Below are positions 8,762-53,752 of a stretch of DNA of 64,000 nt, piece by piece. Each line of letters starts with the position of its first letter. The stretch's first letter is position 1. The notes under the pieces were generated by a model. The model ran no database searches. It was given only the letters and a program-made list of their open reading frames with translations, and was not told the DNA's origin. The position numbers were made by a program, and so were the translations under genes. Source of the stretch: Paraflavisolibacter caeni (GTDB taxonomy: Bacteria; Bacteroidota; Bacteroidia; Chitinophagales; Chitinophagaceae); NCBI RefSeq assembly GCF_025628885.1, contig NZ_JAOTIF010000002.1, forward strand, positions 496,001-560,000. The letters are read 5' to 3'.

Positions 8762-8869
8762 TTATAAGACAGAAGCATAGCATAGTGCAACAAGAGGGCG
8801 GCAGCCCAAAGTGCTGCTGACCCTCTATTTAAAAAGAGTTCACTCTTCATTTTCATAGAAAAACAGCAC

Positions 8870-8899
8870 GCCTTTCCGTCTCTACGGAAGGGCTTTTTT
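8870..8899 (+). terminator. Intrinsic terminator after adhE
   Basis: GCCTTTCCGT (8870-8879) pairs with ACGGAAGGGC (8884-8893) with one G-T pair and a CTCT loop, followed by six T. A weaker hairpin, AGAGGG...CCCTCT at 8793-8826, lies between it and the adhE stop. Confidence 0.8.
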
Positions 8900-8940
8900 A
8901 TTAACTATCAGCAACTTTTAGCAATTATCTTAACAATTGA

Positions 8941-8974: not shown

Positions 8975-9050
8975 TATTGAAAATTAGAATAGAACAACTA
9001 CTAACAGAGGTCAGAAAGCCAATCGTTAGTTTAATATATTGTAAGAATTT

Positions 9051-9106
9051 TCATATGGCAAGCAATCGTTAGACGCCTCTTGTTTCTACAAGGGGCTTTT
9101 TCTTTT
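9051..9106 (+). terminator. TCATATGGCA element plus intrinsic terminator inside the leader of the MFS gene
   Basis: GCCTCTTGT (9075-9083) pairs with ACAAGGGGC (9088-9096) around a TTCT loop, followed by a T-rich tail. It lies between the promoter at 8967 and the MFS gene, so it either ends a short RNA of about 130 nt or acts as an attenuator. AACAGAGG at 9003-9010 can pair with the left arm (with a one-base bulge) and could form an antiterminator. The preceding TCATATGGCA (9051-9060) recurs exactly at 30531, again just before a hairpin of the same design. Confidence 0.55.
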
Positions 9107-42213: not shown

Positions 42214-42279
42214 CCCCTGTCACATGAAACGGGAGTTTTCCACCGTAATTTATTTAGCTTTTTAACCTTTTTTAGACAG

Positions 42280-42500
42280 AAAAAATCCCCTCAATACATT
42301 GAGGGGACAATTCCTTTGGCGTATAGCGATTAATTACAAATCACTTTGTACTAGGGACGGACGCCTTTAGGACTTTCTTAGGATTGGATAGGTTTTTCAG
42401 GAACGGACTGGATTAATTTGGTTGATCGGATTTGGATTTCCGGCTTTTCAGGACCCTTTATAGGGGGAATTGGATTTTGATTTGTTTTCCAGGATATTGA
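42280..42500 (-). ncRNA. Candidate small RNA with UCC repeats between gatC and trpS
   Basis: No coding region exists between gatC and trpS (546 bases), yet the minus strand has a complete transcription unit. TTTG (42534-42537), 20 bases, then TACTTTTG (42506-42513) form a consensus promoter. A hairpin with 9-bp stem (42287-42306) followed by ATTTTTT closes it. The predicted RNA of about 220 nt holds 14 UCC triplets (GGA on the plus strand) within about 150 bases, 42354-42496, mostly as AUCC or GUCC in A-rich sequence. Near the 3' end GGCGU and ACGCC can close a side domain. It does not look like tmRNA, RNase P RNA or 6S RNA as I know them. Confidence 0.55.
42287..42306 (-). terminator. Intrinsic terminator of the candidate small RNA
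   Basis: CCCCTCAAT and ATTGAGGGG form a 9-bp stem with a two-base centre. The T-tract (ATTTTTT) lies on the minus-strand side only, so it terminates leftward transcription for which no protein gene exists. Confidence 0.75.
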
Positions 42501-42505
42501 TAGAT

Positions 42506-42537
42506 CAAAAGTAGAGGGCTTGAAAAACCCAAACAAA
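42506..42537 (-). promoter_or_regulatory. Promoter of the candidate small RNA
   Basis: Minus-strand TTTG at 42537-42534, 20 bases, then TACTTTTG at 42513-42506. This is the best full -33/-7 match I found in the window. The expected transcript start is about 42500. Confidence 0.6.
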
Positions 42538-53554: not shown

Positions 53555-53715
53555 GAAAAATTTAGTAACATGCAGAACGCGTTGGTAAACAGTAGTATAA
53601 TCCAGTTTTCTACATATAAAAACATAGAATTATTAAAATAAAATCAACAAAATTTTGCATGGAAGAAAAAAGTATATATCTTTAAAACAGTTTTCATAGG
53701 GTACGGATTAAAAAC

Positions 53716-53745
53716 GGGCCAGGGTTTCTACCCCGGCCCAAATTT
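53716..53745. terminator. Terminator downstream of the polysaccharide deacetylase gene
   Basis: GGGCCAGGG (53716-53724) and CCCCGGCCC (53731-53739) form a GC-rich stem with loop TTTCTA; T-tracts on both sides (TTTTT on the minus strand, TTTTTTT on the plus strand). Confidence 0.85.
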
Positions 53746-53752
53746 TTTTAGA

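Follow-up and report, generated by a model that had tools for sequence, protein, structure and literature searches.

The minus strand of positions 42537–42280 in the window (the whole 64,000-nt stretch of DNA that was analysed) probably holds a gene for a tandem-site RNA sponge, an RNA of ~220 nt that would sequester a group of sibling small RNAs, here called seed sRNAs. The 5′ two thirds of the sponge would form a near-continuous row of five degenerate sites of ~20–30 nt each, every one pairing with the 5′ seed GGUUUUUCAUAGGAUAUUGGAUUU of a ~60-nt seed sRNA, and the 3′ third would consist of a GGCG/CGCC hairpin domain and a terminator. One sponge molecule would bind several seed sRNAs at once, and those bound would be kept from their targets, or destroyed before pairing with them. 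The genomes contain both gene families, with promoter-like and terminator sequences, covariation in the 3′ hairpins of each, and an excess of sites for the seed in the sponge family.

The promoter comprises a –33 box TTTG (42534–42537) placed 20 nt from a –7 box TACTTTTG of the TAnnTTTG type (42506–42513), both read from the sequence of the minus strand; an earlier note on this DNA had placed a TTTG-N20-TACTTTTG promoter at 42537–42506, and it is present there. We take this arrangement to be the Bacteroidota-type promoter consensus, and a hexamer scan of 42537–42506 found no sigma-70 hexamers. At the other end lies an intrinsic terminator (42280–42308; fold z = –4.86), composed of a stem (42308–42285) and a T6 run (42285–42280); the hairpin and T-tract described earlier are present, with a stem of 10 bp and not 9. 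With its start set by the promoter and its end by the terminator, the RNA presumably transcribed from this unit has a predicted length of 221 nt (42280–42500, minus strand) and carries 15 UCC and 4 GGA triplets, 14 of the UCC falling within the first 150 nt, as the earlier estimate of ~220 nt with 14 UCC in ~150 nt had it. The repetition exceeds chance: none of 2000 dinucleotide shuffles equalled 14 UCC per 150 nt (shuffle mean 8.5, maximum 13); 14 is also the maximum among the window's 150-nt stretches, sampled every 10 bases on both strands. In the 3′ domain (42318–42365), GGCGU (42365–42361) is predicted to pair with ACGCC (42322–42318), and this stem encloses CCGUCC and UUAAUCGC. A coding reading of the locus was rejected: only one ORF of 40 aa or longer overlaps the RNA on the same strand, and this frame (52 aa, from a TTG at 42536) starts within the promoter and is interrupted by a 1-nt gap in the alignment to a paralog, where it is not kept. 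The absence of a credible reading frame, and the prediction of an independent, non-coding, sponge-like transcription unit, accordingly agree with what had been proposed.

The locus is no orphan, as it had been called, but a member of an unannotated multicopy RNA family, the UCC-RNAs, with 7 paralogs in the window's genome. When 29 genomes were searched at the DNA level, the sole match was a second, partial copy in that genome; this paralog shares with the locus its promoter type, its start (UCAAUAUCC-GGAAAAC), a terminator of like kind and the 3′ block (AAGGCGUCCGUCC ... UUAAUCGC ... CGCC). Among 294 genomes of the wider bacterial family, the exact 3′-domain pattern was found in this genome only; 23 further exact matches came from a broader contig set, which may omit records close to the window's genome, and were taken as chance, none being Bacteroidota by title. 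Further copies in the genus first emerged from a search with a sequence model of the 3′ block that the two have in common. A structured model, R2, was then built from 15 copies, the locus itself among them (its match, at 42276–42390, scores 66.1 bits), and gives 58 copies, those 15 included, in 15 of the 18 genus genomes at E ≤ 1e-3, with 8 copies in the window's genome. One genome (G009) has a weaker match (E 0.005) that reads like a member, and two of the 18 (G011 and G016), both with seed sRNA, yielded no convincing UCC-RNA. In a search of 147 wider-family genomes, reading of the sequences identified members in a further three genera (one represented by G155 and G065, the others by G076 and by G165), and a fourth (G046) gave a weaker match (E 0.013); three other R2 matches read in the wider family were false. 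R2 alone is not clean, because two matches with no UCC array (G037 and G130) had E ≤ 1e-3. The 66 matches fetched were reduced to 62 by dropping the four that lack the array (G037, G130 and G164 in the wider family, and G006_4 in the genus, E 0.0011). Of 27 wider-family loci (L100–L126), five have a cluster of at least four seed sites and three more were read and dropped; a cluster of four alone proves nothing, because a shuffled seed also gave 4–6 in several of these loci.

Several copies are close neighbours or near duplicates. The window's genome has tandem UCC-RNA genes on one contig (L068 on C23, 991–1098 and 1481–1588), both of which have a separate terminator and are preceded by TAnnTTTG. 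Two near-identical copies in G003 (L138 and L139), ~47 kb apart on opposite strands, look like a recent duplication. All four copies of the near-identical pair G003_5/G003_6 and of the pair G006_1/G006_2 (identical upstream, cut by contig ends) were kept in the counts. Short-read assemblies may undercount the family, because contig ends fall inside L066, L077, L090 and L223. At gathering score, Rfam 15 gave only tRNAs, and no family for the window, for 20 sponge loci or for 12 seed-sRNA loci; scans by E-value threshold gave matches only far below gathering scores.

Promoter, terminator and motif are conserved in the family copies, which was the conservation check set beforehand. The GGCGU/ACGCC stem of the locus recurs across 52 aligned copies with both sides changing; taken together, stem (GGCG/CGCC) and terminator show 97.3% pairing, and 11 of 13 pairs have changed on both sides, in an alignment (A8) that was fitted to the model's structure and so favours pairing. 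On each of the five measures, none of 500 shuffles matches this covariation, and sliding the partner destroys the pairing. TAnnTTTG precedes the UCC array in 40 of the 59 copies with full upstream sequence (shuffle mean 6.9, maximum 14), and the strand of the copies is fixed because of the terminator and promoter. Of these 40, 14 (but not the locus at 42537–42280) have a GTAwnnACCATA box whose distance upstream of TAnnTTTG is exactly 60 nt (shuffle mean 0.03), and CGTA-N(3-6)-TACG occurs upstream at varying distance in 13 of the 40 (shuffle mean 0.23); both are perhaps shared activator sites of the UCC-RNAs. By eye, a long-range helix AGAAGUUGAUUGAUA/UAUCAGUCAACUUCU encloses the first array in about half of the 40 (e.g. 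L089, L074 and L138), and seed-sRNA pairing at AAUCCAAUAUC, just before the 3′ strand of the helix, could compete with it. In L080, L081, L082, L133, L141, L145 and L150, no TAnnTTTG was found in the 420 nt searched; most TAnnTTTG-less members, which may use a different promoter type, have an AATAAG(G/T)GAT-like box upstream, again by eye. The neighbour of L141 on the other strand (2322–2825) is a GNAT acetyltransferase (Pfam).

The UCC triplets form the halves of a recurring unit of approximate sequence AAUCCAAUnUCCUnUGAAAAACC, which is the reverse complement of the seed GGUUUUUCAUAGGAUAUUGGAUUU. Across the family, strong enrichment of UCC, AUCC and GAAAAACC, but not of GGA, marks the 130 nt that precede the modelled stretch; in the 200 nt upstream plus the match, the UCC-to-GAAA distance peaks at 6 nt (start to start). 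Five predicted seed-sRNA sites tile 42369–42500 of the locus on the minus strand, and the energies below are those of the duplex with the type-1 seed: site 1, UCAAUAUCCUGGAAAACA (42483–42500, –17.8 kcal/mol); site 2 (42450–42479, –17.6 kcal/mol); site 3 (42419–42441, –18.2 kcal/mol); site 4, UAAUCCAGUCCGUUCCUGAAAAACCU (42390–42415, –20.2 kcal/mol); and site 5, AUCCAAUCCUAAGAAAGUCCU (42369–42389, –17.4 kcal/mol). The earlier suggestion of many identical seed sites is borne out insofar as the sites are many and alike; they look, however, like decoys for the seed of another RNA.

That partner was found by searching six genomes for ATCCN{2,4}GAAAANCC, which returned one exact recurring 15-mer, along with UCC-RNAs and scattered single sites. 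On its other strand, the 15-mer is the start of a second RNA, in which a short linker joins GGUUUUUCAUAGGAUAUUGGAUUU to a hairpin followed by a U run; the seed sRNA is ~60 nt long, multicopy and unannotated, and consists of a 5′ seed and a terminator. The first 23 letters are constant in 37 copies, bar one letter in two of them, the first 15 having been the selection criterion for these copies and the later ones not. The hairpin covaries in the same 37 copies, with 6 of 9 pairs changed on both sides in an alignment that, unlike that of the sponge, was not fitted to the model structure; on four of the five measures no shuffle out of 500 reached the observed value, and for the count of pair types 14 of the 500 did. 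An nAnnTTTG lies within 16 nt before the first G in 42 of 86 copies (TAnnTTTG in 5; shuffles 2.8), and the seed is predicted to be mostly single-stranded (mean unpaired 0.66). The seed-sRNA model has matches in each of the 18 genus genomes (in one of them, the sole match is truncated by a contig end) and in 126 of the 147 wider-family genomes at E ≤ 0.01 (97 at E ≤ 1e-10). Outside the genus, the best loci from 27 genomes all keep the 24-nt seed unchanged, partly by selection, because the search expression left few positions free. Being degenerate, the sponge sites alone do not obviously explain a near-invariant seed. The seed 24-mer had no exact match in viral contigs.

The window itself carries a type-2 seed sRNA on the plus strand (53689–53748; R3, 39.8 bits, E 5.4e-9 in the window), with AGUUUUCAUAGGGUACGGAUUAAAAACGGG followed by a hairpin and a U run, and it may be a partner of the sponge family. 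Some UCC-RNAs contain a block similar to the complement of this seed, CCCGUUUUUAAUCCGUACC: CCCGUUU occurs in 13 of 62 (shuffle mean 1.5). Two weaker matches to the seed-sRNA model also lie on the plus strand of the window (9045–9106, 20.1 bits; 8847–8902, 13.1 bits), with UUUUCAUA near the 5′ end, a UCUA-loop hairpin and a U run; they may represent additional short sRNAs, arranged in tandem and with different seeds.

Seed sites were counted at a cut of –14 kcal/mol, picked once and not tuned. The 62 UCC-RNAs hold 334 predicted type-1 sites at or better than this value, compared to 27–47 in ten shuffled RNA sets, 18–109 with ten shuffled seeds and 49 with the reversed seed. Type-2 sites number 221 (57–77 in shuffled RNAs, 74–161 with shuffled seeds, 98 with the reversed seed), and the two counts overlap because both seeds share UUUUCAUAGG. 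When only the 130 nt before the modelled stretch are counted, 59 RNAs carry 169 type-1 sites; the controls gave 10–22 for shuffled RNA, 19–37 for shuffled seeds, 11 for 58 flanks and 4 for the opposite strand. On both strands of 1.2 Mb of G003, the four densest site clusters (8, 8, 6 and 5) are UCC-RNAs: the first two form a near-identical pair, in which one of two shuffled seeds likewise scored 5 sites, and the fourth, a weak model match (E 0.07), nevertheless has the promoter, 5′ helix, array, AGGCG and terminator. The total of 2702 sites in this 1.2 Mb lies between those of the two shuffled seeds (2381 and 2936). For the locus RNA alone the excess is moderate, since its 4 sites were reached by none of 150 shuffled RNAs but by 3 of 60 shuffled seeds, and at least one shuffled seed had a better summed energy. 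A seed sRNA lies within 1.5 kb of at least 11 of the 58 UCC-RNAs, always on the same strand, where 0.28 would be expected on either; this count draws on 123 seed-sRNA matches of at least 30 bits, among the matches listed, with the partial ones in G007 (C11) and G006 (C25) omitted. Taken across the family, pairing of UCC-RNAs with seed sRNAs is well supported by the sequences, and the duplexes would be expected to form in the cell.

The direction of control is less firmly indicated: we infer it, because the excess of seed pairing at start codons is marginal or absent and expression is a prediction. Tested against 919 ORF start codons of G003, the type-1 seed gave 82 pairs at –14 kcal/mol compared to 51–78 for eight shuffled seeds, a marginal excess at this cut only, with none at –16 kcal/mol (21 versus 11–31). 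Hence regulated mRNAs were not found among these 919 starts, and any regulon of the seed sRNAs is conjectural, as is the benefit that a sponge would bring. The type-2 seed gave 21 pairs at –20 kcal/mol versus 4–12 for eight shuffles, and no target claim is made for it because its reversed sequence gave more (32). Start regions of mRNAs are proposed as a possible target class because UUUUCAU in the seed complements AUGAAAA. The at most marginal excess of pairing at ORF starts would also fit reversed roles, in which the UCC-RNA is the effector, acting as a scaffold or regulator through its single-stranded units, and the seed sRNAs are its antagonists. So would the position of the UCC-RNAs as the densest complementary clusters in the 1.2 Mb, and the presence of seed sRNAs in more genomes than UCC-RNAs, clear matches to which occur in far fewer genomes of the wider family. 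This reversal is nonetheless unlikely: a long RNA with several sites set against a short RNA with a single seed has the stoichiometry of a sponge and suggests that the short RNA is the one sequestered. Moreover, G011 and G016 have the seed sRNA with no convincing UCC-RNA, so that it may have other partners.

More improbable again is titration of a protein, as the earlier note had suggested, whereby AUCC..GAAAAACC units would bind an RNA-binding protein with a logic like that of CsrB. The regular spacing of the units would suit such binding, UCC-to-UCC distances peaking at 5–7 nt and again at ~26 nt (start to start, in the 200 nt upstream plus the match), as would the locus array, predicted to be mostly single-stranded (mean unpaired probability 0.71), and the transcription-factor-like box common to several members, as in RsmY/Z. 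However, the unit is not a bare UCC but a complement of the seed found in another sRNA family, and protein titration predicts neither this complementarity nor same-strand adjacency with another RNA family. CsrA (PF02599) was found in none of the 18 genus genomes, the control search finding it in 3 of 14 known genomes, and Hfq was likewise found in none of the 18. A CsrB-like protein sponge was rejected for want of a CsrA gene and of GGA enrichment (42 in the UCC-RNA family, shuffled mean 44.6), and the earlier statement that this is not CsrB, UCC being on the RNA strand, is upheld. An Hfq-bound class was rejected in the absence of an Hfq gene from these 18 genomes; binding of the UCC-RNA or the seed sRNA by a protein of the RRM type, for example RbpB, is still conceivable.

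Since the unit is co-directional with gatC (start 42201) and divergent from trpS, with 78 nt on the same strand from the T run to the gatC start, it could be read as a 5′ leader of gatC whose hairpin is a regulated terminator. This reading is very doubtful and was rejected, because the position is not conserved: a coordinate comparison placed no family-model match beside gatC in any of the 8 other genus genomes with gatC located. Chance composition or a decayed mobile element, to which the dispersal of the copies and the two seemingly recent duplications (in G003 and G006) might speak, is scarcely credible in view of the covarying hairpins, whose counts largely exclude it, the promoter and box spacing, the site enrichment, and the retention of the units in mostly strongly diverged copies.

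The tandem-site sponge thus preferred has relatives among described RNAs. Our searches of the open literature (titles and abstract starts; sponges, and non-coding RNAs of Bacteroidota and Chitinophaga) found no earlier description of UCC-RNAs or seed sRNAs. Sponges of sibling sRNAs are already known from QrrX and CrfA, as far as the consulted parts of those reports go; what would be new here are the tandem sites, several genes per genome, the lack of Hfq, and a phylum with no sponge in the literature searched (open, titles and abstract starts). Post-transcriptional control in Bacteroidota is poorly known, and two linked multicopy RNA families, one of them (the seed sRNA) in most genomes sampled of a large bacterial family, offer a concrete, testable circuit. 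If confirmed, a bacterial sponge with tandem sites and several genes would represent a design of its own. The work also suggests a partner search for other repeat-bearing orphan sRNAs, in which the reverse-complemented repeat serves as the query.

Several decoy sites per sponge are known for the circular microRNA sponges of animals; in the parts examined of the bacterial sponge literature (QrrX, CrfA) they were not met. QrrX of Vibrio cholerae is an RNA sponge of the sRNAs Qrr1-4, found with Hfq and encoded by one gene, which destabilises its sRNAs and for which the text consulted describes one pairing region (PMC9732341). Like QrrX, the UCC-RNA is a non-coding RNA that would pair with a seed common to sibling sRNAs; unlike QrrX as there described, it carries ~5 predicted sites per molecule, is encoded by as many as 8 genes in one genome, and occurs in another phylum and in genomes where no Hfq gene was found, and the destabilisation of sRNAs is a feature of QrrX, the UCC-RNA being known from its sequence. 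CrfA of Caulobacter, which is Hfq-associated, masks the mRNA-pairing site of the four siblings SisA-D (PMC12559287). It resembles the UCC-RNA as a sponge (predicted here) for sibling sRNAs and differs in its Hfq association, and the tandem array belongs to the UCC-RNA, the consulted part of the CrfA report mentioning none. We take the name of a further sponge, that of RoxS, to be RosA. In Bacillus subtilis, the RoxS sponge is, by the part of the account available, an RNA that sponges an sRNA in a species with no Hfq hub protein (PMC8216469).

The seed sRNA has its nearest counterpart in FopS/GibS of Bacteroides thetaiotaomicron, whose genus lacks classical sRNA chaperones according to the sections consulted (PMC11697453). 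There, 14 FopS copies of ~65–70 nt, with Bacteroidota promoters, have a single-stranded 5′ seed followed by a terminator; FopS represses translation by pairing next to start codons, and FopS/GibS bind RbpB and repress susC mRNAs (PMC11697453). By build, which is the extent of the comparison, the seed sRNA is alike in being short and multicopy with a 5′ seed and terminator, and differs in having a predicted sponge partner, none being reported for FopS in those sections (PMC11697453).

CsrB, RsmY and RsmZ have repeated decoy motifs, several copies per genome and, in a subset, an activator-like upstream box, and they bind the protein CsrA through GGA. The UCC-RNAs share the repeated motifs, the multiple copies and an upstream box in a subset of members, and depart from them in a UCC motif, the lack of a CsrA gene and a ligand that appears to be RNA. 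A broader circuit, for which we see an even chance, would be a family-wide, RNA-only titration switch in which dispersed ~60-nt sRNAs with identical seeds are opposed by dispersed tandem-site sponges, some of them co-induced via the box 60 nt upstream of the –7 element. If it exists, such a switch would follow the logic of Gac/Csr with an RNA in the place of CsrA, in bacteria that have neither Hfq nor CsrA.
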